From NCBI GenBank assembly GCA_030729385.1, contig JANQXM010000046.1:1-41678 (forward strand): DNA of 41,678 bases, written 5' to 3'. Source of the stretch: Opitutales bacterium (GTDB lineage Bacteria > Verrucomicrobiota > Verrucomicrobiia > Opitutales > Coraliomargaritaceae). A program made the position numbers and the translations under genes. Below are positions 4,294 to 40,509 of the stretch, one piece after another. Within the stretch, counting starts at the first letter, position 1. Each line of letters opens with the position of its first letter. A model generated the notes under the pieces. The model had not been told where the DNA came from, ran no database searches, and saw nothing but the letters and a program-made list of their open reading frames with translations.

Positions 4294-4414
4294 GCCGGCA
4301 GATGAATGATGATGGCCGTTATCGGTAGTTGTTCGTGCGGGGGATGCCAGTGGCGGGTATACAATGATATATCTATAAAAGTCGAAAAGTTGCAAGCTGG
4401 GCTTGAGGGCACAA

Positions 4415-7800: not shown

Positions 7801-7990
7801 TCCTGTTTTCGAGTTTTATAACATCGATACAGATCCGAATGAGCAAAGCCCACTCGCAGTTGATATCACGATGACATATGAAATCGACCCAAGCCTACTG
7901 ACCGGCGACGCGCTGGATGCCTACAACGCATGTGTGGCGAAAGACACAGCGCTAGGCGGTGGATATAGCGATTTGCCAGTGGCGCCGTAG
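4880..7990 (+). CDS. YHYH-domain protein fused to a C-terminal cysteine-type sulfatase
   Basis: A 1036-aa secreted protein. Signal peptide about 1-28. Residues about 85-385 form a YHYH domain: RYHYH at 201-205, the following LRHQLG, and GWVRDGIPVYGPYGY at 241-255 are hallmarks. A linker with two beta-rich segments (about 425-495 and 512-592) leads into an S1 sulfatase domain from about 593 to 1030. Sulfatase residues: D601-D602, CSPTR at 645-649 with C645 as formylglycine precursor, K701 and H703 in GKWHLG, H781, D841-N842 in GDNG, and K861. The catalytic half therefore looks intact. The role of YHYH domains is not established. A C-rich, SD-less leader precedes the start. It is not in an operon with the first sulfatase: csp and the di-heme gene lie between them on the other strand. 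The next gene (uup) is convergent. Confidence 0.88.
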   Translation: MKLAHLARTSNIIFKIWPLLLTSVALSADPLISSWYTERSGSYARLYETDADQAGLNAVTTWSRGAGVQTYPTYAGVNEISYTEDWLYIRSTNLASYIMGPWYGNLARTNLFINYPANQAVIYRFPRDPVDPATFTPKSITGGGPIGYMVDGVAMFDSRDAFSYDPGTGNEVNGAGDWNRDAYVNESQTFDAGFAHQAGARYHYHANTPALRHQLGDSVDYDAATNTYTENFNGDHSPIIGWVRDGIPVYGPYGYSDPIDASSAVRRMISGYQIRSGLTTRDSWPEWANDVYGAANFSAGPNVSATFPLGRYLEDNEYKGDVSGFDLYEGVIADGAYSPGTDYDLNEYNVRWCVTPEYPAGTWAYFTCIDVDGTPVVPYNIGRVYFGSPTGNTASDIPETDDTVDPLVVHFEGGPEKTESVKEILVDSPAADQITLTWSAIEGGTYEISETSDLSQVFVAMTPTVLATSDSASATHIPGGTRPAQNFYQLARTDLEYFDDTGFVYDDPVLPPVDLPVSITVAMDGGPPNTGVSPVTLTFNGQAIDVASSGVSRPTQTTLTFDAPLYGLAPGTYTIVATYPMGPNRNGTYTVYPNILLMIVDDWGIDRSPLDNTASATVLLPNMPNLESLAASGLRFTNAYAQPTCSPTRATIMTGRQPYQHGVSTPTEAGQFSGGSGIDEITLPEIFTSEGAPQAMLTVGKWHLGGNTSGYSTRGGWPEFYGITSGGVSDYYNWTKNSNGSNATSTTYTTTDQVNEATKFMLTKNAEGIAWFTWVAFNAPHSPFQEPPAALAPAGGYSVQDVGEGANDYNYRLSLEALDTEIGRMMESLDPAKTHIIIIGDNGTPGQTVQEPFGGTPSRAKGSLYEGGTHVPMIVSGPAVTVTPGSTSDKLVHCVDLFSTILEMADIDESLVTGLSAMNVSSQSVVPILSNSDTADRVVIVEGGETNKGRAIILDDYPDYKLIIFGDPDSTTDDPVFEFYNIDTDPNEQSPLAVDITMTYEIDPSLLTGDALDAYNACVAKDTALGGGYSDLPVAP

Positions 7991-13754: not shown

Positions 13755-15419
13755 TTATTCAACTTCTTCAGTGGTGTCTTCTTCCGTTTCGGGAAGACCA
13801 CGTGCGACTAGCTCGTTGACAGTGCTGCTGTTGCTGACTGATGAGGACATATAAGAGAGGAAGCTTAATGCTTGTGTCATATCTTCGTCATCTTCGGCAA
13901 TTTCGGGCACTTCCTTATTCTCTAAATAAACGAAAGTGCCGATATCACTGGCAGTGAACATAGCAGAGACTTCGCCGACGTTCATACCTTGTGCGGTTTG
14001 TAGCGCTGTGCGGTTGAGCTCGCGTGGAGCATCGGCAACCTTGAAGGCTTCGTAGCTGTTTACGCCGAGATCAAGTGCGGCTGCGGCATCTGCGAAACTA
14101 GTGCCTTCGGCGAGTTTTGCTTCGAGTTCTGCTTTAAGGCTTTCACCCTTTTTGTTGAAGAGCGCGCGTTTTTCTTCGCTTTTGTAGTTGGCGAGCACTT
14201 CAGCTTGCACGGTTTCGAAAGCAGGCAGCTCGGGAGCGATGCGGCCTTCATAGATGAGGACAGCAAATCCGCCGTCGATCGCGTAGGCATCTGAGAAGTA
14301 GCGATTGCCACCCAGTGCGAAAGCAGACTGCAGCATCTCAGCAGAGAGTGCACGTTGCGAGGCACCTTGTGCAGAGTAGGGCTCGATTGCAGTGAGGCTG
14401 AGGCCGGATTCGTTGACTAGCTTGTTGAAAGCCGCGGACTCACGTGCGATTTCGTCGCGGTAGAGCTTGTAAGCAAAAGCTTGTGCGGCTTCGTTTGCGA
14501 GGCGCTCAGCGCTCTCTGCTTTGAGGCTGGCTTCGACAGAAGGACGGACGTCTTCAAATGTAACAGCAGGGGCTTCTTCACCTTCAGCTGGTGTTGGTTG
14601 GAGAGCGGTGAAGGCATCGACGAATTTTGCACGGTTGGCGATGAAGTGGTCGCGCAGGGCGGCATCTTCCAGCCCGGTCACTTGATCGATGTATTTCTTC
14701 GATGGGAAGAATGCGTAGCTTGCTTTGATGCGTTCAGGGATTTCGTAGCGAGCAGCATTGTTCTCGAAGAAAGACTTAAGTGTCGCTTCGTCAGGAGCGA
14801 TTTCAGGAGCGAAATCCTTGTAGGCGATTTCAGCTGTGGCCAGTGTCAGTGTTGTTTGTGAGCTTTGTGTTTGTGCCTTTGCCTCGGAAGGTAGGACGTA
14901 ACCTGGGCCAGTGAGGGCGCTGGTGATCTGATCGATACGATAGTCTTCTTCGAGGACGATCGCTACCAGACCGGCTTGCATGCGAGGGTTCGATTCGACG
15001 GTGTCGATGAAAGTGGTGTAGCTGTCAGCGCTGAATTGACCATCTTGGCCGCGGAAGGCGGGCTTGGTCTTGATGTATTCCGCAAGCGTCGCTTGATCCG
15101 GGCTAGGGATGCCGATCTCGTCAGCGAGGTGCAACTTGGCGATACGGTTGATCACCTGTGATTGGAACTGCTGGTCCGAGCGGATTTGCTGGCTGTTGAA
15201 GTAAACGCTGAGCTGCACTTTCTCGACGATGACGTCACGCACACGTGGAGCGTTCAAGTCGATGCCATAGAAGTATTGCTCTTCATAGGCACTATTATCG
15301 GTTGTGCAACCAGGCGTATTGCCGATCGTGAAGACGAAGGCTACGATGATAAGCGCAAGCAGTGAAAGGAATATCCAGCGACCGTGGCGGATGAGGTGAT
15401 TTTGGATCCAAGAAATCAT
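13755..15419 (-). CDS. SurA/PpiD-like periplasmic folding factor, inner-membrane anchored
   Basis: A 554-aa protein with PpiD-like architecture: a short cytoplasmic N-terminus (MISWIQNHLIRHGRWIF), one membrane segment at about 16-33, then a long periplasmic part. Residues about 35-190 resemble the SurA/PpiD N-terminal chaperone helices (VINRIAKLHLADEIGI, FRGQDGQFSADSYTTFI). I find no good parvulin (PpiC) signature in the C-terminal half, so isomerase activity is doubtful; chaperone function for secreted or outer-membrane proteins is the likelier role. The C-terminus is very acidic (ETEEDTTEEVE). The leader is pyrimidine-rich and SD-less. It is probably its own transcription unit; yihY lies 109 bases upstream. 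Family assignment is firm at the N-terminus, weaker beyond. Confidence 0.82.
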   Translation of the reverse strand: MISWIQNHLIRHGRWIFLSLLALIIVAFVFTIGNTPGCTTDNSAYEEQYFYGIDLNAPRVRDVIVEKVQLSVYFNSQQIRSDQQFQSQVINRIAKLHLADEIGIPSPDQATLAEYIKTKPAFRGQDGQFSADSYTTFIDTVESNPRMQAGLVAIVLEEDYRIDQITSALTGPGYVLPSEAKAQTQSSQTTLTLATAEIAYKDFAPEIAPDEATLKSFFENNAARYEIPERIKASYAFFPSKKYIDQVTGLEDAALRDHFIANRAKFVDAFTALQPTPAEGEEAPAVTFEDVRPSVEASLKAESAERLANEAAQAFAYKLYRDEIARESAAFNKLVNESGLSLTAIEPYSAQGASQRALSAEMLQSAFALGGNRYFSDAYAIDGGFAVLIYEGRIAPELPAFETVQAEVLANYKSEEKRALFNKKGESLKAELEAKLAEGTSFADAAAALDLGVNSYEAFKVADAPRELNRTALQTAQGMNVGEVSAMFTASDIGTFVYLENKEVPEIAEDDEDMTQALSFLSYMSSSVSNSSTVNELVARGLPETEEDTTEEVE

Positions 15420-15497
15420 GTGTAGGTAAAGAGAAAGCGCAGGAGGTTAGGTCTGGGGAAACCGCTGTCAACTCAATGGTTGCAGTCTATTTTGACT

Positions 15498-15524
15498 ACG
15501 AAAGGCACAAAAGACGCGAATTTA
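15498..15524. repeat. Short degenerate 9-base tandem repeat between yihY and the PpiD-like gene
   Basis: Three 9-base units, ACGAAAGGC, ACAAAAGAC and GCGAATTTA; the first two match at 7 of 9 positions and the third is poor. It lies just downstream of the yihY stop. Too short to be sure it is more than chance. Confidence 0.3.
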
Positions 15525-15528
15525 GGAC

Positions 15529-17010
15529 CTATAGCAGGTCTCGAAGGCTCAGATTGGCGCTGGGGCAGTCTTTTAGCGAAACGACTTCTTCTAAATAGGT
15601 AGTTACGGCTGGGCTGGATGCGGCGATTAAATCGGCGCCATCGTTGTTGCCGTAGCATTCGAAGGCTTGTTTGAAGCTGCCTAGATTGATCGATTCGAGT
15701 GGCTGGGCGGGCTGGTAGGCGTGGTCGCGCTCTTCTTCGATGCTCTTGGTTTCGACTTGGTAGAGATAGCCGATCTGGCAGAGGCGCGTGATGCTAGAAT
15801 TCAAAATATGGCTGGGCACGCGTAGTCGTTTGTGGATCTCACTGGCGCGTAAGGGTGGTCCGCCAGTGTGAAAACGTTGACCGACGGCGATGAGCACAGC
15901 TAGCGAGATGAGCTCGCGGGCGCGCTCGCTGGTCTTTTGCCAGGCGCTTTCATTGGTTAATGAATCAGCGTTTTGCATGGCGTAGGTGACTTGTCCGCCA
16001 AACAAAATAAGCAGCCAAAAGACATAGAGTCCAAGCATGAGTATGACGATAATCCCGACAGAACCATAGAGGCTCTTGTTGTTGACGACTTGCTGGACGT
16101 AAAGAAACGAGAGCATCTTGTAAACCTGCAGCAGGCTGACGACGAGAACTGCGCCGACGAAAGCGGGCCTCCAATTGACCTTCGTGTTGGGGATGAAGCG
16201 GAGGAAGACCGCCAGCAGCACGACAATCATGATGAAGCCGATAACGGGCGAGAAGAACTGAATCATCGACGCGAGCGTGGTCCCAAAGGGTAAGTTTTGG
16301 GCGAACTGGGTGAAGACTTTAAGAATCTGCAGTGAAATAGCGGCGGTGCCGAGGACGGCACCGAGACTAATCAATGTCCAATAGGTGACGATGCGTTCGG
16401 TGAAGTTGCGCCCCTGCGAGACTCCCCACAGAGTGTTGAACGATTTCTCGATCGAGGTGAGCACCTGCAAGCAGATGAATAAGAGCATGAGCGTGCCGAT
16501 CACGCCGACGGTGCCTGACTTCGCTACGGAACTGAAATTATTGATGAGTTCGAGTAACTCGGGTGCGAGTTCTGTGCGAGAGCCACCATTGCCGTGGTCA
16601 TCGATTGTGACCGCGACTTGTGGTGCGGCGTAGGCGATGATCTCTGTGATCTTTTGCACGACGACGCTGTCTTGCTGACCAGCTGCGGGATCGGAGGCGA
16701 TGTCTTTATCGAGCAAGAACCCGGAGATCATTATGCCGAAGGCGATGAGTGGTCCGATCCCGATCGAGGAGAAAAAGGTCAACGCCGCCGCTTGCATCGG
16801 GATGTGATTCCGCTTCAACCCCTGAAAGGTGAGCGTCAATACACGCAGCAATAGGTAGAGCCGTGCGCGCACAGTCTTGCGACCTAGGTGCTCTAGTTCC
16901 CAAATGTCCTTATATAATAGCGCCTGTGTGCGGGCGCCATATTTGCGGGCTTGGCTGAGAAAACTGGCTTTCCTTTTGGCGTCAGCGGCTTGGTTCTCTT
17001 TATTATCCAC
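15529..17010 (-). CDS. YihY/BrkB family inner-membrane protein
   Basis: A 493-aa YihY/virulence factor BrkB family protein (historically misnamed RNase BN). Residues about 60-350 hold six or so membrane segments, with family features QAAALTFFSSIGIGPLIAFGIMI at about 74-96, FNTLWGVSQGRNFTERIVTYW near 195-215, and YGSVGIIVILMLGLYVFWLLILFGGQVTYA near the end. A cytoplasmic C-terminal part (about 365-493) resembles a winged helix (HTGGPPLRASEIHKRLRVPSHILNSSITRLCQIGYL), common in long family members. Between the first two membrane segments is a long loop with a Gly/Asn-rich stretch. The start codon is GTG (17008-17010). Biochemical function of the family is not settled. It follows the GYF-domain gene by 23 bases on the same strand, probably one operon. 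Confidence 0.88.
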   Translation of the reverse strand: MDNKENQAADAKRKASFLSQARKYGARTQALLYKDIWELEHLGRKTVRARLYLLLRVLTLTFQGLKRNHIPMQAAALTFFSSIGIGPLIAFGIMISGFLLDKDIASDPAAGQQDSVVVQKITEIIAYAAPQVAVTIDDHGNGGSRTELAPELLELINNFSSVAKSGTVGVIGTLMLLFICLQVLTSIEKSFNTLWGVSQGRNFTERIVTYWTLISLGAVLGTAAISLQILKVFTQFAQNLPFGTTLASMIQFFSPVIGFIMIVVLLAVFLRFIPNTKVNWRPAFVGAVLVVSLLQVYKMLSFLYVQQVVNNKSLYGSVGIIVILMLGLYVFWLLILFGGQVTYAMQNADSLTNESAWQKTSERARELISLAVLIAVGQRFHTGGPPLRASEIHKRLRVPSHILNSSITRLCQIGYLYQVETKSIEEERDHAYQPAQPLESINLGSFKQAFECYGNNDGADLIAASSPAVTTYLEEVVSLKDCPSANLSLRDLL

Positions 17011-17033
17011 AATCGATTTCGATACGGCTTCGC

Positions 17034-17846
17034 TTAATCAGTGAGGATGTCGAACTGAACGCCTTCAAAGAATCCTGTAAAGCGACCAGCGACTGCCAAA
17101 TACGCAAGGAATCCATTGCCGCCGATACCAATGACGATTGCTAGATACATAATGGATTGTCTTTGAGCGATGGTGGCGAGGAAGATGCCTAGTCCTGATA
17201 ATGCGGAGACTAACATTAAGATCGGATCCCCCAGCGACCAGCCTACATAGGCTCCGAAGCCGAGTGTGAGCATCGAGCGTCCTCGCAGTAGCGGATATAC
17301 TTCAGTGACCGCGAGAAAGAGGAATATCCCCATCATGAAATCAAATATGCCAATCAGAATGAATGGGAAATTGATGAGTGATGCGTAAGTGCCTGATTGT
17401 ATCGCATCCAGAATGATTGAATAATGCGGATAGAGCAAAAAGACAGCTGAAGCCATCATCATGATGCCGAGACTCGGTGCGGAGAGGGCGGCGGCTTTGT
17501 TGAAACTTTTTTCCTTTTGCTTCAGTGCTTTTTTCTCGGCTGTGTTACCTTCCGCTGCGTCGAGCATGTCTTCGACCGAGTGTCCGCCGGGATCTTTTAC
17601 CGCTTCTTCTGCGGCTAAGACCTCCTTGCTCTTTTGAATCTTGAGCTCGAGTTTTTCACGTTGCGGGAATACTTGGGCGCACAGTTCTGGGTTCAGTGCG
17701 ATGGGCACCCATTCTTCTTTTGATTCGTCGTAGTAGAGTGAGTTCTCTGAAATTTGGCCTGCCTCCGCTAAGGTTTGCAGCTTGATCGGATCAAAGGGGC
17801 CACGGGATTCGTCTTGGTCAGGTGTGCGTATGTAGCAGTCCGGCAT
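17034..17846 (-). CDS. GYF_2-like (DUF4339-type) domain membrane protein
   Basis: A 270-aa protein from the chosen start. Residues 1-55 (DCYIRTPDQDESRGPFDPIKLQTLAEAGQIS...YYDESKEEWVPI) match the GYF_2/DUF4339 pattern, in which a G-P-F/Y motif and a trailing W bind a peptide. A charged middle segment (about 60-125) with coiled-coil character follows. Four to five hydrophobic segments lie between about 130 and 265 with small loops. The frame is open 23 codons further up to 17915, but those residues do not belong to the domain, so the ATG at 17844-17846 is preferred; neither has a Shine-Dalgarno. Function is unknown; DUF4339 proteins are common in Planctomycetes-Verrucomicrobia-Chlamydiae genomes. 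First gene of a probable pair with yihY. Confidence 0.7.
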   Translation of the reverse strand: MPDCYIRTPDQDESRGPFDPIKLQTLAEAGQISENSLYYDESKEEWVPIALNPELCAQVFPQREKLELKIQKSKEVLAAEEAVKDPGGHSVEDMLDAAEGNTAEKKALKQKEKSFNKAAALSAPSLGIMMMASAVFLLYPHYSIILDAIQSGTYASLINFPFILIGIFDFMMGIFLFLAVTEVYPLLRGRSMLTLGFGAYVGWSLGDPILMLVSALSGLGIFLATIAQRQSIMYLAIVIGIGGNGFLAYLAVAGRFTGFFEGVQFDILTD

Positions 17847-18027
17847 CGTTCTGTTTTGTTTAACTGTTGCGTGGGTCAAATCGTGGATGCGATTTGAATA
17901 GGTAAATTTGACCACTCATTCCACTTTCCAGCAAGCGCAAATAACGGTGCGTAGGATGAAGCAATTGTTAAAAACTTGCTGAACGCTGGCTTGCACAGTT
18001 CCGTAAATCCCTTAGCGTGCCGTTTTT

Positions 18028-23664: not shown

Positions 23665-24795
23665 ATGACAAATCCCAATGAATGGATAGATCCGAGTTCC
23701 CCTGGCGGAGCCAAAATCAAGAAGCGGAAACGCAGTGCTATCTTCATCGTGGTCGCAGTGAGCCTCGCGGTTCACTTGCTAGCCGGTGGCGTGTTGGCGA
23801 TTATTAAGATTACGGAGAAGATTGCAGCGAAGCCTGAGTTTGAAGCGCCTGCACTGGAGAAAATAGATACACCTCCGCCTCCACCTCCGCCTCCACCGAC
23901 GACGAAGCGGTCGGCGAAAAGTATGCCACGGCCACAGCCATTGGTGGTGCAGAATCCACAGAATATGTCTGTGCCTGCGATTCAAATTGATCAGTCGCAA
24001 ATGACTATCGGTGGCGGTCGCGGTTTTGGCGGCGGGCTTGGTGAAATCGGTGGTGGTGCTATTGATGCGGTTCGATTGACAAGTTTTGGTTACGACCAAG
24101 CACTTGAAGGGACGCTAACGGGAACACTGTATGACCTGAAGACAGATCGTAATGAAAAGCCAGTCAAGTATCCTGGTGATCTGGAGCAGTCGGCATCTCC
24201 TATTTTTAAAGATTTCACGCGGAACTTCGATTTGAACAAGTTGAGCCGTAAGTTTTACAGAGCGGATACGACTTTGTATGCTTCTTATTTTGTGATCAAT
24301 AACCAGCCTGCGGGTAATGCACCAAAGGCGTTCCAGGCGGAGGGTGTTATTGAGCCAAAGATGATTTGTGCATCTTATACCGGCACGTATAAGCCGACAG
24401 AGGATGGTCGCTTTAGACTATTCGGTCGTGGTGATGACGTTCTCGTTGTCAGCATTAATGGGAAAATTGTGTTGGATGCGTCATGGCGGACAGATTTCTA
24501 TTCCGGTTGGAGTCAGGGCTCTTCGGCAGCCAAGGAAGATGAAAAGAATCCACGCAGTTACTTTGGCTTTAAGCCAGCTGGTATTACCGGAGACTGGTTT
24601 AACCTTAGGGCGGGCGTCATGACCGAAGTGGACATCGTGGTCGCAGAGGTGCCAGGTGGCTGGTTCGGTGGTTATTTACTCATCGAGAAAGACGGAGAAC
24701 CGGGGATGAAAATTTTCACAACTCGTCCTTTTAGTGATCAAGACCGCAACTTCCTGTTAAAGGTGCACCCAGACGTACGTCAGTTTCTGAAGTAG
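23665..24795 (+). CDS. TonB-like N-terminus (SxxxH membrane helix, Pro-rich stalk) joined to a PA14-like domain
   Basis: A 376-aa protein. A basic cytoplasmic N-terminus (KIKKRKR) precedes one membrane helix at about 25-47 that contains S33-x3-H37, the SxxxH motif by which TonB couples to ExbB/ExbD. A Pro-rich stretch follows (nine prolines in a row at 70-78, then PRPQP), then a Gly-rich segment (116-131). The C-terminal part, about 195-355, is not a TonB_C domain. It contains EDGRFRLFGRGDDVLVVSINGKIVLDASW (about 247-274), which resembles the core of a PA14 domain, a beta-barrel that often binds glycans. So the architecture is energised anchor plus probable ligand-binding head. It lies 129 bases after fabI and convergent to proB. 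Function is inferred only; ExbB/ExbD genes are 14 kb away in this window. Confidence 0.72.
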   Translation: MTNPNEWIDPSSPGGAKIKKRKRSAIFIVVAVSLAVHLLAGGVLAIIKITEKIAAKPEFEAPALEKIDTPPPPPPPPPTTKRSAKSMPRPQPLVVQNPQNMSVPAIQIDQSQMTIGGGRGFGGGLGEIGGGAIDAVRLTSFGYDQALEGTLTGTLYDLKTDRNEKPVKYPGDLEQSASPIFKDFTRNFDLNKLSRKFYRADTTLYASYFVINNQPAGNAPKAFQAEGVIEPKMICASYTGTYKPTEDGRFRLFGRGDDVLVVSINGKIVLDASWRTDFYSGWSQGSSAAKEDEKNPRSYFGFKPAGITGDWFNLRAGVMTEVDIVVAEVPGGWFGGYLLIEKDGEPGMKIFTTRPFSDQDRNFLLKVHPDVRQFLK

Positions 24796-27734: not shown

Positions 27735-30269
27735 CTACATTGCCTCTGGTAGAAGCGCGGTTTGGCTGAGCAGGACCCAGCATTGACGACCATCGGTGAG
27801 TTTCACCAGTCCCCATTCGTCGCGGGTTTCAATGAGTGTGAATTCTGTGCCGTCGTGGATTGCTTGGCTGAAGGCTTTGGCATAGCCGTGACCCGGACCT
27901 TTGAGGGCGTCGAGGGAATCAACGATCACGACACCCTGAGGCTCGCTTGAGCGGATCCGTGTGATGAAGAGGCTGGCTGCGACTAGAAGGCAGGCACCCA
28001 ACGCAATGGAGAGCACGGCAAAATTACGTTTTCGATAACGCAGCGTGAGCAAGAGGCTGGTCCAGAAGCAGAGGTTGACGATAGCGAGCACTGGTTGGAT
28101 CCAACGCAGGGGTATTTGTCGCCATGTTGTTTTGGCTGGCGGCAGATCGTTGAGAGCCATGGCGCGGGCGGTGGCGAGGTTCTCATCAAGCTTTGGATCG
28201 AAGGGGCGGTAGGATTGCGCCATACGGTAGGCTGCGATTGAGCGTCCGATGGCACCGGCTTGAAACCAAGCATTTCCAGCATTGTGCCATGCTGCGTCGG
28301 GGTGGTCCGCGATAGCGGATTCGGATTGAAACTTTAATGCGGACTCGGAGTAAAGCGCATTAGCCGTGTCGCTGCCGGCGGGGGCACTTAGTGCTTGGTT
28401 GAAGAGTGCTTCCGCAGCGTCCCAGTCGGCGGCCTCTGCTTGTGGTGTCATCAATTGGCTGAACAGGAAGCAAGAGAGGGCAAAGATACTGATTTTCTGA
28501 AGGACACGTTTGGCGATGGAATCTAAGTTTGAGAAAGTGGTCTCTGGGTGTGTTTGGCTGAAGTCGCGGGCATCAGCGCCTTGGTGCATTTTAGTGACGT
28601 CTTCGATTTCTTCAGGGCTGGCGTCGATGCTTTTGAGTGCGTCGAGAGAGTTGCGTAGCGTCCATGCTTGGGCGTCGGTTTCAAAATACGCGGCCATGAG
28701 GGTCAGGAAGGCGGGCCATTTTTCTTTAGCGTTGGCAGGTGTCTTTTTGAATACGGCATATGCTTGCGCGCGTGATCGGTAGAGCGGGTCGTTGGCACGT
28801 CGACGTTGCTCGCGGATGATTGGCAGGAGTAGGGCGAAAGCAATGGGACCGAGTAGCAGGAGTGCCCAAAAGGCGTTGTTCAGGAAATTGAACAGAGTGT
28901 TGAGGAGATCATTCATACGATTCGCTTTCAGATTGTGCCAGATACCTTCCGGCTGGTTCGTTAAGGTGATGGCCGCATCTTTAAAAGATTTCAGCGGGAT
29001 AAAGTTTTGTCCATCTCTCGGCGCAACTTTGAGAGGAATGGGGTCGGTCGTGTGGGTTTCGTAGCTGCCTGTTTCGGTGTTAAAAACTAGAATTTTGAGC
29101 GAAGGGAAAGCGGAGATCGAGGTGGTCAGCGCGCGTAAGCGGGTTCGGAAGATGGTGCCGGCCTCGTGCCAGAGGCGGCCATAATCGTCATCGACCAGAA
29201 AGCGGGTGCGTAGCCCGCTTTGGTGACTCAACTGTGGCAGGTCGAGCATCCCATGGGGATTGTTGCCGCTGAGTTTGATCTCCAGTTCCATCAGTTGCCC
29301 AATATCGATTTCGGTTGGGCTGAGAGATAATTGAATGTCCACCGGGGCGTATAGTCCGGAAAAGGTGTTGCCTGTGGTATTTTGAGGCAGGGGGAGGACT
29401 TCTATTTGTAACTCCGGTGCGGTGGTGTAGAGGCGCTCGTGGCGTATGTCGGGGTCGGTTGCTTCAAATAGGGCGTTATTGAAGTGGGCGGCATAGTTGG
29501 CGAAATTCCCCGAGGACTTTTCGATTTGCGCGCACTCCAAGCGTGTTTCCGGTAGGGAATAAGTGCCGGGAGTCGAAAAACGTAAATACAGAGGCAGTTC
29601 AACTTTGCCGAGAAACTTTGGGTGATCGGTTGGAATGGTGCGGTTGCCAATGACGCGGCGGCCACCGATCGGCAGACCGAGCTGTGTATCGTCATCGCTC
29701 GTGTTACGCGGGATGACGATTTCGATGCTGGGGTCGTTGAAAAAGTCCGGATAGAGTTTGAGTGCCTTTATGCTGTTCGCGGGAAGTTTGCATTCCCAGG
29801 CAAAATCGATGCGAAGTGGTTCGCCTACATAGATGGTTTGCTTTCTTGGAGCCAGGCTGAGCGACATGGCATCGGAGCGGCGCGGTTGACTGACATTGAT
29901 TGTATGGGGTGTGGTTTGATAGCGCTTGGTTTCGCTGGCGAAGGTGAATGCGGGCAGGGTGACAGCACCTGTCTTGCGCGGTAAGAAGCGGATCATCGCT
30001 ATGGATTGCTCTTTGGCGTCGTCCGACATGTCCTCCACTTCGATATCGAGAATATAATATGTTTTGGGATCACTGGGCCATTCCATGGGTGTTTCGACCA
30101 CAGTATCAAAAGTCGCGTAGGCAACACCCACAGTGTCTGTGAACCATGTCTGCCCTTGGACTTTTAACTCAATCGTGGAGAGTGGCAGTGGCACGGAGAC
30201 TTCTTCTTCCTGTGCGAAAAGGAAAAGCGGCCAGCTCAGGCAAAGAAGTGTGGTGAAAAAACGGCGCAT
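27735..30269 (-). CDS. BatD-BatE fusion protein (BatD Ig-like region, TPR, SH3-like C-terminus)
   Basis: An 844-aa envelope protein. Signal peptide about 1-19. Residues about 25-420 hold the extracytoplasmic BatD region (VYVGEPLRIDFAWE- and IDIGQLMELEIKLSGNNPHGMLDLP-type segments). A membrane helix at about 467-486 and a cytoplasmic part follow. At about 590-613 there is a second signal-like stretch ending in AEA, directly before a TPR region (about 614-705); then two membrane helices (726-743, 750-769) and an SH3-like domain (about 778-838). The second half has the layout of BatE. The internal signal-like segment looks like the old BatE N-terminus. Bat proteins are linked to oxygen tolerance in Bacteroides, with unclear mechanism. 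Its ATG overlaps the batB-batC stop by one base (TAATG). Last gene of the operon. Confidence 0.82.
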   Translation of the reverse strand: MRRFFTTLLCLSWPLFLFAQEEEVSVPLPLSTIELKVQGQTWFTDTVGVAYATFDTVVETPMEWPSDPKTYYILDIEVEDMSDDAKEQSIAMIRFLPRKTGAVTLPAFTFASETKRYQTTPHTINVSQPRRSDAMSLSLAPRKQTIYVGEPLRIDFAWECKLPANSIKALKLYPDFFNDPSIEIVIPRNTSDDDTQLGLPIGGRRVIGNRTIPTDHPKFLGKVELPLYLRFSTPGTYSLPETRLECAQIEKSSGNFANYAAHFNNALFEATDPDIRHERLYTTAPELQIEVLPLPQNTTGNTFSGLYAPVDIQLSLSPTEIDIGQLMELEIKLSGNNPHGMLDLPQLSHQSGLRTRFLVDDDYGRLWHEAGTIFRTRLRALTTSISAFPSLKILVFNTETGSYETHTTDPIPLKVAPRDGQNFIPLKSFKDAAITLTNQPEGIWHNLKANRMNDLLNTLFNFLNNAFWALLLLGPIAFALLLPIIREQRRRANDPLYRSRAQAYAVFKKTPANAKEKWPAFLTLMAAYFETDAQAWTLRNSLDALKSIDASPEEIEDVTKMHQGADARDFSQTHPETTFSNLDSIAKRVLQKISIFALSCFLFSQLMTPQAEAADWDAAEALFNQALSAPAGSDTANALYSESALKFQSESAIADHPDAAWHNAGNAWFQAGAIGRSIAAYRMAQSYRPFDPKLDENLATARAMALNDLPPAKTTWRQIPLRWIQPVLAIVNLCFWTSLLLTLRYRKRNFAVLSIALGACLLVAASLFITRIRSSEPQGVVIVDSLDALKGPGHGYAKAFSQAIHDGTEFTLIETRDEWGLVKLTDGRQCWVLLSQTALLPEAM

Positions 30270-32320
30270 TAAAAATCCTTCTCCACTTTAGCGGCATTGG
30301 CGCTGGCTCGTTTTTGTTGGCGGAACTGCAAGTTGCCTTGCTCTTCCAGTAGAATGTCTTCGGCTGAATAGTTCGGTAGCGGCAGTTCTTGCATCTCACC
30401 GTTGGCGGCAAAATCGCCCTGCATCGGTTCGGACGTGTTGGTGCTTTCTTCCGAGTCTTCCATGTATTCGTATTCTTCTTCCATCTCATCCCAGTCTTCG
30501 CTGTCGGATGAATCTTGAGAGTCGTTGGCGAGTAGTTCGAGTATGGCTTGGATCAATTTCGAGGCTTCGATTTGCATCGATTGCGCCAGTTCCCATGTGT
30601 CCAAGTTTATCAGATTTGTGGTGGCGATCTCTTGGGATTGTTGGACGCGGACGATTAAATTCAGTGGCTCTGTGAGTGCGGTCTCTTGATTTGGGTTTAG
30701 GTCGGCTGGCGAGCTCATCATCTGATGAATTGACTGCATCAGTTTTTGAATATCGACGGCTCCCTGGCGCAACTGTGTTTGCGAGCTGATGAATTGCGGA
30801 CTAAGGCTGGCGGCGTTGTTCGCTGACTCAGGTTTGGATATTTCGGCGTGAAGTTCGTCCTGGGCTTTTATTAATGCTTGCAGTCGTTCGATCAGGATCG
30901 TCATTTGATCATTGATTGCGTCGTTTTGCGCTTCGATGGCTTCAATTTGTATCTGTAATTCGGATACGAATGCAGCGGTGAGTTCGAGCCGAACGCTCGC
31001 TCGTGAAATGTTTGGATCGCCGCGCTTAGCTGCGAGGAAGGCGAGCTGGGCATTTTGTGCAAAGGCAAGGGCTTCCTGTGGGGTTGCTTGCGCTTTGGAT
31101 TGCCCGATCAATGCGAGCCCCTCGTTGAAGTGCACGGCAGCTAGTTGGGCAGGTGTGGCAGTTCGATCTGCGGCTTCTTGAGACAATGCCGCGAATTGCG
31201 TGATCGCCTCGTCAAAATTGCCTGCTTGGAGTGCTTCGGTGGCGGTTTTGAAATTGATTGCAAACGAGTCGCCGGTCGCCTCTGCGTCGGGAGAGAGCGC
31301 GAGTAGGCAGAGCAGTGCAACCGCTTGACCGATTTGCAGACCTCGTGCGCCCCAGCACTCGGAAAGCAGCAGTAGGAACAATGCAGGTATGAGGAAATAA
31401 ATAGCGGCTTCTTTGTAAACGAGTATGCCGGTCTCGTTCATCGCGGCATCGACTTGTCGACCTGCGGCGTAGTCGATATAAACTTGCCCTAGGTTGAAAG
31501 GCTTGGTGCCCAGAGCGAGGTATTCGATGCGATTACTGCGGGCGGCGAATTCTCGTAAGGCGACGTCGTCGAGTTGAGTGGTGACTGTTTCGCCATTCAC
31601 TTGTAGCAAGCCCGGGTTGCCTTCTTCGTCGGTGATCGGGATGGTGCTGCCGACATGTGGGTCGCCTAATCCGAGCAGCAGTGTGTCGACACCTTTGTCT
31701 TCTAAAAGCTCGATCGCTTTGGTGATAACTGAGCCGTGGTCGCCGCCGTCAGTGAGGACGATCAGATCTTGCACGTCGTTGCGGCCTTCTAGGAAGACTT
31801 GATCGACGGCTTTTTCAACGGCGGCTTGCACGGTGGTGCCGCCGAAGTCGACTGTGCGCGTGTTGGCTTGGTCCAGCATGAAGCGGACGAAGTCGTAGTC
31901 GTAAGTCAGCGGGCATAGAATCGAGGCGCTGCCAGCATAGACGATCAAGCCGACACGTTCGTTGCTAAGTGTCTGCAACGCGTCGCGCACCCCTTGCTTC
32001 GCCACTTCGAGTCGTGAGGGCAGTGCATCTCTTGCCAACATACTTTGTGAAACATCAATCGCAAAGACGATGTCTCGCCCGGTGCGCGAGGTAGCTTCGG
32101 CGATGGGAGCGTAGCCGGGCTTGGCGAGTGCTAGAATTAATAGCACGAAGGCTGCGAAGCGCAAAACATCACGCAGTTTGCGATGTGTGTTGTGTCCTCC
32201 GCTCATTGCTTCGATCAGCTCTCGGCGACGTTTGCGGGCATGTGCGAGCAGCCAAAACAAAGGAATTGTCAGCACGAGTAGGACCAGCACCAGTGGCCAT
32301 TGGAAAACGAATTCACTCAT
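30269..32320 (-). CDS. BatB-BatC fusion: von Willebrand factor A domain plus TPR/coiled-coil region
   Basis: A 683-aa membrane protein. Two N-terminal membrane helices (about 8-26, 52-68) precede a VWA domain (about 82-290) with an intact MIDAS start D89-x-S91-x-S93 and TDGGD near 191. A helix at 307-321 ends the BatB part. A second hydrophobic, signal-like stretch at about 329-348 ending in AEA precedes TPR units (about 353-440) and a long Gln/Glu-rich helical region with an acidic segment near the end (SEDWDEMEEEYEYMEDSEE). That second half corresponds to BatC, usually a separate gene. The ATG at 32318-32320 overlaps the batA stop as ATGA, which selects it over the in-frame ATG 18 bases upstream. 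Confidence 0.85.
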   Translation of the reverse strand: MSEFVFQWPLVLVLLVLTIPLFWLLAHARKRRRELIEAMSGGHNTHRKLRDVLRFAAFVLLILALAKPGYAPIAEATSRTGRDIVFAIDVSQSMLARDALPSRLEVAKQGVRDALQTLSNERVGLIVYAGSASILCPLTYDYDFVRFMLDQANTRTVDFGGTTVQAAVEKAVDQVFLEGRNDVQDLIVLTDGGDHGSVITKAIELLEDKGVDTLLLGLGDPHVGSTIPITDEEGNPGLLQVNGETVTTQLDDVALREFAARSNRIEYLALGTKPFNLGQVYIDYAAGRQVDAAMNETGILVYKEAAIYFLIPALFLLLLSECWGARGLQIGQAVALLCLLALSPDAEATGDSFAINFKTATEALQAGNFDEAITQFAALSQEAADRTATPAQLAAVHFNEGLALIGQSKAQATPQEALAFAQNAQLAFLAAKRGDPNISRASVRLELTAAFVSELQIQIEAIEAQNDAINDQMTILIERLQALIKAQDELHAEISKPESANNAASLSPQFISSQTQLRQGAVDIQKLMQSIHQMMSSPADLNPNQETALTEPLNLIVRVQQSQEIATTNLINLDTWELAQSMQIEASKLIQAILELLANDSQDSSDSEDWDEMEEEYEYMEDSEESTNTSEPMQGDFAANGEMQELPLPNYSAEDILLEEQGNLQFRQQKRASANAAKVEKDF

Positions 32321-33342
32321 GGCACGACGCGCAACCAAGTTGCTTCAAGGGTTAATGCGATGAGTAAGCTGATCAACGCGATCGATATGGGTAACCAAAA
32401 CCATTCGGCAACACGATTAAAGCTGCGTGTGGAAATTTCAGAGCGTTCCAAACGATCGATCTCTGAATACACAGATAGTAGTGATTCGAAATCGCTGGCT
32501 TGTCGGAAGATTCCTCCGGTTTCGATACTGATATGTTCCAGCACCTTTTCGGCGGCGCTTAGACTGCCGGGGATGCCCTCGGAATCGAGGTTGCTGCTGG
32601 TGTCGCCCATGCTGATCGCATAGATCCGGCAGCCCCATTCTTTCGCGAGACCTGCGGACTCAATCGGGAGGTGGGCGCCAGAGTTGTTTTCGCCATCCGT
32701 GAGTAGGATGATGACGCGGCTCTTGATGTCGTCGGTTTCAAAAGCTTCTCCGCCGTATTTTAAGGCAGCTGGATCACGCAATCGCGCGGCTGCAATCGCG
32801 AGCGCGTCGCCATAAGCAGTGCCGTCTTCATTGGGGCGTTCTTGGATGTCGAGCTGTCGCACGATCTGGAGGAGCGCATCGTGACCAAAGGTGAGTGGGC
32901 TGCGGGTGTCGGCGTAGCGTGCAAAGGTGATGAGTCCGATTAAATCATTCGGGCGACCCTTGAGGTCCGCTCCATTGCCCGCGATGAATTGCTCGACCAG
33001 TTGCTTGGCGATTTCCATGCGACTGGAATTTTTGCCAGCCATGTTTTTCGTATTCATATCCATGCTGCTGGATACATCGACGAGCATTTGAATCGCGATG
33101 CCCTCGGTCACTTCCATGTTGTAGGTCGATCCTGCTTGTGGGCGTGCGATGGAGATGATTAGCAAGATGATCGATAGGCGGCGCAGCGCGATGGGCAGCC
33201 ATAAGTAGCGAGCTTTCCCGGGCGATTGCGACGACCAGAGTTGAATCGAGGGCACTGCCAGCGATGTGCGGTCGCGTCGACGACGCAGTAGCCAAAGGAC
33301 CAGCGGTATGCCCAGTAAAACCCATGGATAGACGAAACTCAT
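32317..33342 (-). CDS. batA: BatA-like von Willebrand factor A domain membrane protein
   Basis: A 341-aa inner-membrane protein with the BatA layout: N-terminal helix at about 5-19, a second at about 52-66, a VWA domain (about 82-290) facing the periplasm, and a C-terminal helix at about 312-332. The MIDAS is complete: D89-x-S91-x-S93, T175 in EDGTAYGD, and D216 in LLTDGEN. The RRRRDRTSLAVPS segment after the first helix is typical. VWA domains bind partner proteins through the bound metal. The stop overlaps the next gene (ATGA) and its own ATG overlaps the stop of the upstream gene in the same way, so three products are translationally coupled. Confidence 0.88.
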   Translation of the reverse strand: MSFVYPWVLLGIPLVLWLLRRRRDRTSLAVPSIQLWSSQSPGKARYLWLPIALRRLSIILLIISIARPQAGSTYNMEVTEGIAIQMLVDVSSSMDMNTKNMAGKNSSRMEIAKQLVEQFIAGNGADLKGRPNDLIGLITFARYADTRSPLTFGHDALLQIVRQLDIQERPNEDGTAYGDALAIAAARLRDPAALKYGGEAFETDDIKSRVIILLTDGENNSGAHLPIESAGLAKEWGCRIYAISMGDTSSNLDSEGIPGSLSAAEKVLEHISIETGGIFRQASDFESLLSVYSEIDRLERSEISTRSFNRVAEWFWLPISIALISLLIALTLEATWLRVVP

Positions 33343-34103
33343 TTCGCTACCTCCTTCTGTAATGCTGCGAGCAGCACCTCTGGCGCTGGGTGGGAGGCGT
33401 AGATCGCTCGCTCTAAAATGGCGCGAGTGGACTCGGATAGCGTGATTTGATCATTCGCCAAGATCTGCTCGATCATCTTTGTCGGGAGCTGCCCTGATTC
33501 AAGCGATTGGAGTAAATCTTGTAGTGTTGGGGCAGGGTCTTGGGCGAGTGGCTCGGGTTGTGCCTTTAGACGGCGTAGGTATGCAATGCCGCTTATCGTG
33601 AGTGCCAGTAGGATGAGAAATGCAGCGATCAGCCATTGCCTGCTAGACGGATTCACCGTTTCTGAAGCTGTGGGCAATTGCATAGGAGCGTCCGTGTCAG
33701 TTTGCGCTGCATCGGGCAGTGCGATGACCGAAAGGGTGGGTAGCTTCACTGTTTCGATGTGCTCGCCTTGCTTGATTTCGGCGATGATGTTTGCGATCTC
33801 AATTCTGTCTGATCGGACTGGCTGTAGCGTCCAAATTGTAGTCTGCGAGTAGAGACCGTTCGTGTAAGTTATCGGACTGTTTGTTTCTGCTACGAAATGG
33901 AGTGACGGATGTGTTGGTATTTTGAGCGCTAATTCTGCGTAGTCCGCACGCGTCATCTCGGCGGTGAGCTGGATGATGTCACCCGGTGCGCAAGTCTCTG
34001 GCTCGATCGATAGCTTGATGCCTGCGTTTGAGTAATCCAGTGACCATGCGGTCAAATTGAAGCAGTGCAGCGAAAGCAGGCAGAGTATGAGGATGCGTGA
34101 CAT
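33339..34103 (-). CDS. Bat-operon membrane protein with extracytoplasmic beta-rich domain
   Basis: A 254-aa protein not recognised as a named family. Signal peptide about 1-21, an extracytoplasmic beta-rich region (about 25-140) reminiscent of BatD Ig-like segments (CAPGDIIQLTAEMTRADYAELALKIP), a Thr/Pro-rich linker, one membrane helix at about 157-174, and a cytoplasmic Gln/Leu-rich helical tail (about 180-254). The layout resembles the small proteins (DUF4381 type and similar) that sit between DUF58 and batA in many bat operons, but identity is inferred from place and shape. It starts 3 bases after the DUF58 gene and its stop overlaps batA (ATGA). Confidence 0.7.
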   Translation of the reverse strand: MSRILILCLLSLHCFNLTAWSLDYSNAGIKLSIEPETCAPGDIIQLTAEMTRADYAELALKIPTHPSLHFVAETNSPITYTNGLYSQTTIWTLQPVRSDRIEIANIIAEIKQGEHIETVKLPTLSVIALPDAAQTDTDAPMQLPTASETVNPSSRQWLIAAFLILLALTISGIAYLRRLKAQPEPLAQDPAPTLQDLLQSLESGQLPTKMIEQILANDQITLSESTRAILERAIYASHPAPEVLLAALQKEVAK

Positions 34104-34106
34104 GGT

Positions 34107-34976
34107 TCAGCCTCCGGTTTCGTCGATAACTTGACGTTGCCGCTCATGAAAAAATCCCGCTAGGGCTTCCACGCAGTCAGCGCCCACTTCAAGGTTTAGC
34201 AGATTGACGCCAGACTCCATCATCTGCTGCTGCAGTTTTTGCGTGTGGGCTGCGGCTCCTTTGGCGCCTGCTTCCGTGTAGATGACATGTTGTTGACCGC
34301 TTTCGGAGTCTTCCATCCTGACTAAGCCGCTGACTTTTGCCTTTTGCAGTGGATTGTCCGCAATGTGTATCGCGTTGAGGTCGTGCCGAAAGGCGAGGTT
34401 TTGCAATTCACGCGTGTAGTCTTCAGTCAGGAAATCGGATACGACAAAGACGATGGAGTGCTTGCGCGCCATGTGCCCAAAACGTCCGAGTGCTTCGAGG
34501 AAATTGGTCCCTTTATTCTTTGGTTGGAAATGAATCAACTCATCCATGATGCGCATGGCATGGCTGCGGCCTTTGGCGGGTGGCACGATTTGTTCGATTT
34601 CGTCGCTAAACAGAATCAACCCGACACGATCCTGATTTTTAATCGCCGCCATAGTAATGAGGGCGCAAATCTCGGAGACGGTTTGTGCTTTTTTGCCGAG
34701 ACTGCCGTGCCGCATTGAGGCCGACACATCGACAAGAAGATAGATGAACTGCTCGCGTTCTTCGATGTAGCGCTTGATGTGTGGTTCGCCTGTGCGAGCG
34801 GTGACCTTCCAGTCCATCGTGCGCACATCGTCACCCGGTTGGTAGGCGCGCACATCTTCAAACTCAATGCCGCGTCCGCGGAAGACCGAGCGATACTCTC
34901 CCGCAAGCAAATGCTCGACAGGTTGCCGGCACTTAAGCTCCAGCAAATTGAGACGCTGATCGAGATCGTCTAACAT
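34107..34976 (-). CDS. DUF58 domain protein (MoxR-associated, VWA-like)
   Basis: A 289-aa cytoplasmic protein with the DUF58 signature FEDVRAYQPGDDVRTMDWKVTARTGEPHIKRYIEEREQ (about 39-76), followed by a VWA-like core LLVDVSASMRHG with D83-x-S85-x-S87. DUF58 proteins accompany MoxR ATPases and Bat VWA proteins and are thought to assist a chaperone-like maturation complex. It has no signal peptide or clear membrane helix. It lies 30 bases after moxR and 3 bases before the next gene, in the middle of the operon. Confidence 0.92.
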   Translation of the reverse strand: MLDDLDQRLNLLELKCRQPVEHLLAGEYRSVFRGRGIEFEDVRAYQPGDDVRTMDWKVTARTGEPHIKRYIEEREQFIYLLVDVSASMRHGSLGKKAQTVSEICALITMAAIKNQDRVGLILFSDEIEQIVPPAKGRSHAMRIMDELIHFQPKNKGTNFLEALGRFGHMARKHSIVFVVSDFLTEDYTRELQNLAFRHDLNAIHIADNPLQKAKVSGLVRMEDSESGQQHVIYTEAGAKGAAAHTQKLQQQMMESGVNLLNLEVGADCVEALAGFFHERQRQVIDETGG

Positions 34977-35006
34977 GGTAAAAGAGTGTCTCGGTGTGAG
35001 ATTTCT

Positions 35007-35978
35007 CTATTCAGTCACCGGCACTTTCGCGAGTATTTGATCGAGTAGACCGTCCGAGGTAATGGACTCGGCTTCCGCGCGATAAGAGATCGCCATACGA
35101 TGGCGGAGAATGTCGTGCGAAACATCTTTCACATCTTGTGGTGTGGCATAGTCACGACCTTGCATCAATGCATGTCCGCGCGAGGCGAGTGAGAGATAGA
35201 TGGAGGCACGTGGGGAAGCTCCAAAGCGGAGATAGCGTGAGAGGTCCAAGTCATAGCGTTCAGGGTGGCGGGTCGCATCGACCAAGCGCAGGATGTAGCG
35301 TTCGACTTTCTCATCGATGAAAACTTTTTCCAGTTCGGCTCTCATTTGCATGAGTTCCTCGATTGTCAGGATCGGGGCGATGTCGAGCAATGGCTGCGTG
35401 TTGGCCATGCGTTGCATAACTATTAGCTCTTCATCCATCGAAGGATAGCCGACCTTTAGCTTAAACATGAAGCGGTCAACCTGTGCTTCTGGCAGAGCGT
35501 AGGTGCCTTCTTGCTCGATCGGATTTTGAGTTGCGAGCACGAGAAAGGGCTTGGGTAGATCGAAAGTCTCTTTGCCTAAGGTTACTTGCTTTTCCTGCAT
35601 GGCCTCAAGTAGAGCACTTTGCACCTTGGCAGGTGCGCGATTCACTTCGTCGGCAAGAAGTAGGTTGGTGAAAATCGGACCCTTCTCTGGCGTAAAGGTA
35701 TGATTGCGTGGATCGTAAACCAGTGTGCCGGTTAAATCGCCCGGTAAAAGGTCGGGAGTAAACTGGATGCGTCCGAATCCCGCATGGATTGCCTTGGCGA
35801 GACTGTTGACCGTGAGCGTTTTAGCGACGCCGGGGACACCTTCGAGAAGCACGTGACCATTACAGAGCAGGGCGAGAAGCAGACGCTCGACCAGTGCTTC
35901 CTGACCAACGACAACTTTGCCGACCTCCTTCCGGATGTTTTGCAGCGTTTCGGAAATATTGCTTGTGGGGCTGTTCAT
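35007..35978 (-). CDS. MoxR family AAA+ ATPase
   Basis: A 323-aa AAA+ ATPase of the MoxR family, thought to act as a metal-insertion or complex-assembly chaperone with VWA partners. Walker A is GVPGVAKT at 47-54 (the MoxR form with A before K), Walker B LLLADE at 106-111, sensor-1 region LVLATQNPIEQEGTYALPEAQVDRFMFK at about 145-172. The C-terminal lid (SPRASIYLSLASRGHALMQGRDYATPQDV) is typical. It is the first gene of the six-gene leftward operon; a palindrome at 36009-36033 lies in its leader or promoter. No Shine-Dalgarno is visible. Confidence 0.93.
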   Translation of the reverse strand: MNSPTSNISETLQNIRKEVGKVVVGQEALVERLLLALLCNGHVLLEGVPGVAKTLTVNSLAKAIHAGFGRIQFTPDLLPGDLTGTLVYDPRNHTFTPEKGPIFTNLLLADEVNRAPAKVQSALLEAMQEKQVTLGKETFDLPKPFLVLATQNPIEQEGTYALPEAQVDRFMFKLKVGYPSMDEELIVMQRMANTQPLLDIAPILTIEELMQMRAELEKVFIDEKVERYILRLVDATRHPERYDLDLSRYLRFGASPRASIYLSLASRGHALMQGRDYATPQDVKDVSHDILRHRMAISYRAEAESITSDGLLDQILAKVPVTE

Positions 35979-38817: not shown

Positions 38818-39249
38818 CTAGAGTCCGTATGAGGCGAAGGAGACCTTTGTGATCTCGGCTCTGGCACAGGCATTTAGCACGTCGATCGAGCGCTGGTGCG
38901 GGGAGTCGGGGTCGGCTTGGATTTTGACGACGGTGTCGATCCCTGCGCGGTCGGAAGATGTGCGCAAGCGAGTAAGCGTGTATGAGAGCTTGGCCATGTC
39001 CCGGTCATTGACCGAGTCCATCGGGGCACCGTTTAGAAGGATCAACCCGTTGGGGAAGACTTCAACGATGTGTTCGCTGGGGAGCTCAAGGTTCTCAGCC
39101 GGTGGCGCATCGCTGGGGAGCTTAATGCCGATATCTGCTTCCTGCTGGAGTGGCAGGAACATGAAATAAATCAACAGGAGGAAGACGACGTCGATCATCG
39201 GTGTGATGTCGACTCTATCTTCGGACTCTAGAATTTTGTTTACAGCCAT
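38818..39249 (-). CDS. ExbD/TolR family proton-channel subunit (second copy)
   Basis: A 143-aa inner-membrane protein: short cytoplasmic N-terminus, one membrane helix at about 17-36 with the conserved proton-carrying Asp D20 in ITPMIDVVFLLLIYFM, and a periplasmic domain (about 40-143). It forms a proton-driven motor with ExbB/TolQ. It is the last gene of the set, 3 bases after the first exbD. Its periplasmic domain differs from that of the neighbour, so the two may assemble as a heteromeric pair. Confidence 0.9.
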   Translation of the reverse strand: MAVNKILESEDRVDITPMIDVVFLLLIYFMFLPLQQEADIGIKLPSDAPPAENLELPSEHIVEVFPNGLILLNGAPMDSVNDRDMAKLSYTLTRLRTSSDRAGIDTVVKIQADPDSPHQRSIDVLNACARAEITKVSFASYGL

Positions 39250-39252
39250 AAT

Positions 39253-39657
<405 letters not shown>

Positions 39658-39680
39658 CGGTTAATTATTTGGTTAGGGGA

Positions 39681-40469
39681 TTAACGATTTTTAATCGCAG
39701 TGTTCATTGTGAACTGTAGGTCACCCACGATACGGCCGACACGTGAGGTGATCTTGCCGTAGCGATTCTTGAAAAAGAAGAAGAAGAACATTGCGGGAAT
39801 ACCAACCATCATACCAGTTGCGGTGGTGATGAGCGCTTCCGAAATGTTACCCGCAAGTGCTTGGGCACTACCGGCGCCTTCCGCTTCGATCACGTTGAAG
39901 GCCTTGACCATACCAGAAACGGTTCCGAGGAGACCGACCATTGGCGAAAGCGAACCGATAACGGAGAGGTAATTGATAAGGATGTATGGTCCGGCTAACT
40001 CCTCAGCGGATGCTTCTTCGACGGCTTCTTTGACTTGCTCTGCATTGTAGTCGTTGACGTCTACACGGACGAGGCCAGCACCAAAGATATTTGTCATCGG
40101 GGCTGGGTTTTCATCGCAAAGGGTTTTGGCTTTTTCGAGGTCGACCACCTTAAGGGCTTCTTCGATTTCGGCGGCTACGTCTATTTTGAGGATGGGGCCC
40201 GCTTTAACTGCCATGAAGTTATAAACGATCAGTCCAAATCCGGAGATTGAAAGGAGCATCAACGGATACATGGCCAAGCCACCAGCTTTGAACATGTCGA
40301 TAAGTGACTTCTCTCCTTGGACTGGGCCGGCTTCTTCACCTTCTACTGCGGTTTCAGCTGCTGGCGTGTCTTGAGCTTGGAGGCTTTGGGTGATCGTCCA
40401 TTGTGTGACGCCGACAAAGAGCGCGATGGCGAAGAATGAGGGGATGAGGCGGAACGTTGTTTTTTTCAT
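39681..40469 (-). CDS. ExbB/TolQ/MotA-type proton channel protein with N-terminal signal-like extension
   Basis: A 262-aa MotA/TolQ/ExbB channel protein. Residues about 1-32 are a signal-peptide-like segment ending in LQA, followed by an acidic linker, then three membrane segments: about 66-86, 163-185 and 205-230. The segment LSVIGSLSPMVGLLGTVSGMVKAF (about 168-191) is the family signature, as is SEALITTATGMMVGIPAMFFF. A signal peptide before ExbB is a known variant, as in E. coli relatives with periplasmic N-termini. It lies 41 bases downstream of the TPR gene and begins an exbB-exbD-exbD set. Partner could be a TonB outside the window. Confidence 0.9.
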   Translation of the reverse strand: MKKTTFRLIPSFFAIALFVGVTQWTITQSLQAQDTPAAETAVEGEEAGPVQGEKSLIDMFKAGGLAMYPLMLLSISGFGLIVYNFMAVKAGPILKIDVAAEIEEALKVVDLEKAKTLCDENPAPMTNIFGAGLVRVDVNDYNAEQVKEAVEEASAEELAGPYILINYLSVIGSLSPMVGLLGTVSGMVKAFNVIEAEGAGSAQALAGNISEALITTATGMMVGIPAMFFFFFFKNRYGKITSRVGRIVGDLQFTMNTAIKNR

Positions 40470-40509
40470 AGCGGTTGTATTTTTAGAAAGCTAAGTGGTT
40501 TTGAGAGGC

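Follow-up and report, generated by a model that had tools for sequence, protein, structure and literature searches.

A TonB-like inner-membrane anchor with a predicted PA14-fold head in an Opitutales bacterium, and relatives linked to ExbB/ExbD-type motor operons

The stretch analysed here, called the window, comprises 41,678 nucleotides of an Opitutales bacterium (contig JANQXM010000046.1 of assembly GCA_030729385.1). The gene under study lies on the forward strand at 23665-24795 (ATG start, 376 amino acids, stop included in the coordinates), solitary between genes that were named, from their translations, as enoyl-ACP-reductase-like and glutamate-5-kinase-like. Its product has the layout of a TonB-like inner-membrane anchor. 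A short, K/R-rich cytoplasmic start (residues 1-24) leads into an N-terminal transmembrane helix at about residues 24-50 (23734-23814; helix 15-53 in the AlphaFold2 model), whose hydrophobic segment 25-50 contains S33-L-A-V-H37 (23761-23775), the S-x3-H motor-binding motif. The fuller transmembrane motif of TonB is S-H-L-S, and the anchor follows it with S33, H37 and L44, while the fourth position is occupied by K48 and not by serine. The linker starts with nine consecutive prolines (residues 70-78; 23872-23898), where pLDDT falls, and it is predicted to be disordered up to about residue 139, including a Gly-rich stalk at residues 116-132 (24010-24060; pLDDT <50). The anchor carries two of the traits of the TonB family, a Ser-x3-His transmembrane helix followed by a Pro-rich periplasmic linker, as well as two of those of the vWA class of transducers, an SHLS-type transmembrane segment (with K48 in fourth place) and a Pro-rich, disordered linker.

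The remainder of the protein, residues 140-376 (24082-24792), forms a globular head with the PA14 beta-sandwich fold, predicted with high confidence. The AlphaFold2 model, built from 51 aligned sequences, has a mean pLDDT of 82, exceeding 90 over most of residues 140-376. Top Foldseek matches to the head model were the sugar-bound PA14 domain of a Marinomonas adhesin (7.6e-8) and the yeast Epa/Flo lectins, the PA14-like aligned range extending over residues ~145-355, and VIA-align superposed the model on 6m8m with a Z of 12.7 (161 residues aligned, rmsd 3.1 A). The fold is named after the anthrax protective antigen, which is also among the structural matches (Z about 8). Pfam places PA14 (PF07691) at residues 230-273 with 18.8 bits (E=0.0014), under the gathering cut-off of 24 bits, so for the single sequence the assignment is marginal; it becomes solid with the predicted fold and with the relatives, since PA14 was matched in 26 of 51 homologues (E<=0.1, best 7.4e-7), and GLEYA in eight of the 51. 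A phmmer search of the PDB with the anchor sequence returned chance matches only, and a match to NCBIfam GltJ was rejected as compositional, as it covered the N-terminus only and scored far below cut-off. Within the head, D257-D258 (24433-24438) occupy the alignment positions of the Asp-Asp pair in the lectins Epa6/Epa9 and are invariant (51/51) and nearly so (46/51), respectively, among the homologues. Such an Asp-Asp pair binds Ca2+ and sugar in PA14 lectins, and PA14 domains have non-lectin roles too; the fold and this one motif suggest that the head may bind a glycan through the pair. A sequence-only reading of the locus had proposed a transmembrane S-x3-H motif, nine prolines with a Gly-rich stalk, and a PA14-like C-terminus in place of a TonB_C domain. 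All of these were recovered: the predicted fold, on which that reading had staked its refutation, is PA14 and not TonB_C-like, TonB_C (PF03544) has no Pfam match in the anchor even at E<=10, and the proposed HMM check for PA14 gave a match that is sub-threshold in the anchor alone.

A first scan of the genome contigs with the single anchor protein gave no match. Subsequently, anchor matches were obtained in 18 of the 44 genomes of the window's family. These comprise five full-length relatives with 41-59% identity (L003-L007, equal to L048-L052) and a second branch of ten or more with 31-38% identity, and further matches within the family cover only the first ~140 residues of the anchor. With a profile of 14 sequences, the anchor family was detected in 117 of 388 genomes from across the phylum, where matches weaker than ~1e-30 may be differently headed siblings. 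In a scan of GTDB genomes, occurrences fell in Opitutia, Puniceicoccaceae, Kiritimatiellales/Pontiella, Verrucomicrobiales and Akkermansia, nearly all of them Verrucomicrobiota or Kiritimatiellota; only two loci titled Blastochloris fell elsewhere, and these are probably mis-binned. Several variants of the architecture were observed in addition. PA14-headed anchors also occur in tandem, two to six at a time, in L095 (9875-18731), L101, L114, L129, L131 and L137, with six almost consecutive copies in Akkermansia glycaniphila; the motor His is missing from the Akkermansiaceae copies in such arrays and retained in those of L114. At least one PA14 head (L180; G254:C179) is secreted, bearing a signal peptide and lacking a membrane anchor, a form that other 275-320-residue matches of the phylum profile may resemble. 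In Pontiellaceae (L205, 16091-19372), a 621-residue anchor combines a PA14-type region with an extra C-terminal part that has no Pfam match, and it adjoins a vWA-type anchor; the motor operon nearby has four ExbD-like genes. The mucin-use locus of Akkermansia (Mul1), a possible relative of the anchor family, was dropped from consideration, as the large TPR protein described below was not matched in A. glycaniphila.

The presumed partner motor is encoded in the window 14 kb from the anchor gene, on the opposite strand, in an operon at 38818-41628 that runs on to 44483 on the contig. Read from the window's right end, it contains an exported-looking TPR protein (40510-41628, assigned from TPR matches and gene order), an ExbB/TolQ-like motor subunit with a signal-like N-terminal extension (39681-40469; PF01618, 4e-28) and two ExbD/TolR-like proteins, the first at 39253-39657 (PF02472, 2.9e-24) and the second at 38818-39249 (PF02472, 2.8e-18), which keep the membrane Asp within LTPMIDVVFLL and ITPMIDVVFLL, respectively. 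A large TPR partner of ~950 residues, recognised by gene order, lies beyond the window (G000:C46:41628-44483). The genome contains only one such large-TPR motor operon and two anchors with foreign heads, the second of them on a different contig. In close relatives, the gene order is large TPR - TPR - ExbB - ExbD - ExbD - anchor(s), with the anchor gene following the second ExbD after a gap of 41 bp in L048, 43 bp in L049 and 10 bp in L052, while in L050 a tandem sibling begins 18 bp past ExbD and the PA14 gene 17 bp past the sibling. Linkage to the motor operon thus holds for all but one of the five full-length relatives (L048, L049, L050, L052), the gene in L051 being solitary, and the order TPR-TPR-ExbB-ExbD-ExbD-anchor is seen again at L198, a locus from a different family of the class. 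In the second branch, anchors are divergent to GH13-amylase-like (~1600 aa) - large TPR - TPR - ExbB(-ExbD) operons (L053, L057-L062; in every case with a sufficiently long contig), and in Cerasicoccus (L193) the divergent operon is TPR-TPR-ExbB-ExbD without the amylase gene.

Other genes of these neighbourhoods are also worth recording. The ~1600-residue protein heading the second-branch motor operons (L057, 10526-15298; L053, 9889-14715; L058, 4561-9333) has a GH13 catalytic domain plus extra weak GH-type matches. In L064 and L066, a vWA-type anchor follows the motor operon, and in L066 it is succeeded by three genes homologous to those at 13755-17915 of the window, where ~21 kb separate them from the motor; the window genome's own vWA-type anchor of this kind is on another contig (G000:C33:13519-14901; L192, 10520-11902). 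Near the window's motor operon is a MoxR/Bat-like locus (27735-35978) that includes vWA-type proteins at 30269-33342.

The tandem siblings of L049, L050 and L052 share ~80-95% identity over the transmembrane helix and linker and only ~10-30% over the aligned C-terminal residues. The force-transducer anchor is thus modular as judged from these comparisons, with one motor-binding half reused with different heads. Pfam identifies the alternative head of the L063 siblings as vWA (2.3e-8). As Pfam finds vWA in only two of ten siblings, and the AlphaFold2 model of a sibling head, computed from two sequences, reached a pLDDT of 38, the assignment is firm for the L063 siblings alone, and the heads of the others are likely vWA.

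In regard to the material on which such heads could act, the linked loci of relatives encode sulfatases, GH43, GH3, BNR_4, GH78, GH39 and a feruloyl-esterase-like protein, along with a sugar transporter and a TonB-receptor plug (TBDT plug) protein, and LacI-type regulators are found near the amylase loci. This suggests an association of sulfatases and glycoside hydrolases with anchor loci, to be read with the caveat that the genomes may be sulfatase-rich anyway. Two further genes of the window have unusual compositions. One (4880-7990) encodes a 1036-residue protein ending in a sulfatase-type domain (NILLMIVDDWG...CSPTRATIMTGR), whose long N-terminal part carries an HYHANTP motif and which looks like a domain fusion; the other (2542-4395) encodes a 617-residue protein that appears to be a fusion of an MbnP-like domain and a cytochrome c peroxidase, with two CxxCH motifs.

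Taken together, we consider it probable that the anchor is a periplasmic arm coupled to the proton-motive force, with its transmembrane helix docked on a motor, its linker bearing the force and its PA14 head acting on what is likely a glycan. The helix would dock through S33/H37 at the edge of an ExbB pentamer that holds two different ExbDs, in the manner of TonB and TolA on their motors, and the motor concerned would be the TPR-TPR-ExbB-ExbD-ExbD system at 38818-44483. Its movement would travel through the Pro/Gly-rich linker to the head, which would grip its ligand, most likely a glycan, by the Asp-Asp pair with Ca2+, and the exported TPR proteins could serve as a periplasmic or outer-membrane scaffold. 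The arm would most likely serve to take up or handle polysaccharide fragments within the envelope, the force being exerted on the glycan itself or on a partner that holds it. The sequence-only reading's idea of a motor-linked anchor gains support from the operons of the relatives, the head-swapped siblings and the joint loss of His and TPR gene considered below. As to function, that reading had offered both polysaccharide movement and wall remodelling; the sulfatases, the GH3, GH43, GH78 and GH39 proteins, the GH13 amylase and the sugar transporter in the relatives' loci favour the former, leaving the latter less favoured. A broader proposal, which we put forward as doubtful, is that of a motor-driven lectin of Verrucomicrobiota and Kiritimatiellota, in which a TPR-scaffolded ExbB-ExbD-ExbD motor with exchangeable PA14/vWA-type heads would directly seize polysaccharide in the envelope and draw it inward, allowing PMF-powered uptake of long glycans independently of TonB receptors.

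Alternatively, the anchor could be motor-driven while its head, like TonB_C and TolA_C, grips a protein instead of a glycan, be it a TPR partner, a lipoprotein or a barrel of the outer membrane. This is rather improbable in our estimation. It would fit with the TPR proteins encoded in the same operons and with the vWA-type sibling head, a fold tied to adhesion and protein-protein interaction (PMC12204202), but the head's nearest structural neighbours are PA14 domains with bound carbohydrate, the Asp-Asp pair is conserved as a lectin site would predict (D257 fully, D258 nearly so), and the relatives' loci are devoted to glycan degradation.

Whether the periplasmic arm is energised at all can be approached through the distribution of the motor motif, whose conservation the sequence-only reading had named as a refuting test and which indeed proved conserved outside one lineage. 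H37 is kept in all 14 nearest relatives and S33 in 13, with one Thr substitution; L44 is not conserved across homologues. Over the whole set, H37 is kept in 39 of 51 homologues, its losses falling mainly in Akkermansiaceae, and in a tree built only from the head sequences the His state changes in two places, against a shuffled mean of ~10. As a control, S-x3-H occurred in 6 of 394 other proteins with N-terminal transmembrane or signal-like segments in the fetched loci; by sequence, three of these appear to be a TonB-type protein or truncated anchors, while two others show the HE start of a site-2-protease motif. Furthermore, within the 44 genomes of the family, the large TPR gene is present in 18 of the 18 that have an anchor-family member, and the seven without TPR have no member. 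When each of 30 genomes was represented by its best match, 19 had both the His motif and the TPR gene, nine had neither and two had only one of them, one of these two being the case of the secreted L180 head; the table (19/1/1/9) gives a Fisher value of 7e-6, yet it rests on two to three independent changes, a number too small for a test that takes the tree into account. Among genomes with strong PA14-headed matches, the large TPR gene was found in only 3 of 30 from the Akkermansia family (family f10, so identified from a contig shared with a Persicirhabdus record, L094/L199) and in 29 of 44 outside it, against 124 of 388 overall (p ~1e-6, uncorrected for kinship); the other 15 of these 44 gave no large-TPR match at 1e-15, through divergence or real absence. 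The pattern suggests, on few independent losses, that loss of the motor's large TPR partner goes along with loss of the motor His.

These data bear on the notion of a static, inner-membrane-tethered glycan holder in the periplasm, whose transmembrane motif would be a relic. The His-less Akkermansiaceae homologues and the soluble L180 form indicate that a PA14 head can work without a motor, and in the window the anchor gene is unlinked to the motor operon, all in accordance with such a holder. However, the His is kept across very deep divergence in 19 of 20 genomes with the TPR motor system, and relatives are directly linked in operons to the motor, which makes a static role quite unlikely for the anchor. 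A transmembrane glycan sensor resembling the PA14-bearing RsgI-type anti-sigma factors is very improbable: proteins with anti-sigma-factor domains, 6qdi (Clostridium clariflavum) and 6qe7, are among the best structural matches, but the anchor has only ~24 cytoplasmic residues and no anti-sigma or kinase domain, and the S-x3-H conservation and the motor operons would be left unexplained. An ordinary, receptor-type TonB with a diverged TonB_C domain, suggested by the TonB-like N-terminus and Pro-rich linker, is hardly credible and was rejected given the PA14 fold and the missing TonB_C match, all the more as the genome has separate TonB_C proteins above cut-off on contigs C65, C53 and C20.

To our knowledge, the route by which large polysaccharides, sulfated ones among them, enter Verrucomicrobiota is not settled. 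The present family of TonB-like anchors, which have carbohydrate-type heads, are linked to a dedicated motor, lie in loci for polysaccharide degradation and are distributed across the phylum, is a concrete and testable candidate for such uptake, and it suggests a little-known means by which force could be exerted on a glycan or an outer-membrane partner.

Compared with TonB, the PA14-headed anchor has the same short cytoplasmic N-terminus, S-x3-H transmembrane helix and Pro-rich linker, and an ExbB/ExbD-type motor is encoded nearby, in this case in the relatives. Unlike TonB, it has a PA14 head and no TonB_C domain, K48 stands as the fourth SHLS residue, and the motor includes two ExbDs and two TPR proteins. 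The head shares its fold with the PA14 domains of the Marinomonas primoryensis RTX adhesin and of Epa/Flo proteins, including the Asp-Asp aligned in Epa6/Epa9, at a sequence identity of only about 10-17%; those are surface adhesin domains, whereas the head tethered to the inner membrane should face the periplasm. A similar gene order is known from Fibrobacter succinogenes, where FSU_2396-2403 encodes OmpA (2396), TPR (2397, 2398), ExbB (2400), ExbD (2401, 2402) and TonB-family (2403) proteins and is more abundant on cellulose (PMC6851124), the likeness being one of gene order in a different phylum. The closest parallel is the class of vWA-headed TolA/TonB-like force transducers described in 2025 from Proteobacteria, PVC bacteria and others (Mol Biol Evol; PMC12204202), which in PVC sit downstream of TPR, tolQ-like and two tolR-like genes, and whose function was given as unknown, with gliding suggested. 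They have in common with the anchor an S/H-motif transmembrane helix, a Pro-rich disordered linker and a foreign globular C-terminal domain, and the sibling heads in L049, L050, L052, L063, L064 and L066 resemble this class. The idea of a motor anchor with a foreign head, which the sequence-only reading had presented as a different use of the ExbB/ExbD motor, is consequently no longer new; what does appear new is the PA14-headed variant, as PA14 has no occurrence in the main text of PMC12204202 and no PA14-headed anchor was found in the open-licence papers searched, an earlier account elsewhere being possible. The best reading is that the anchor is a PA14-headed member of the proposed class of vWA force transducers. 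It differs from the described members in its head and in the loci of its relatives, which point to polysaccharide degradation, and in this way PA14-headed anchors add a better functional hint to the known class.
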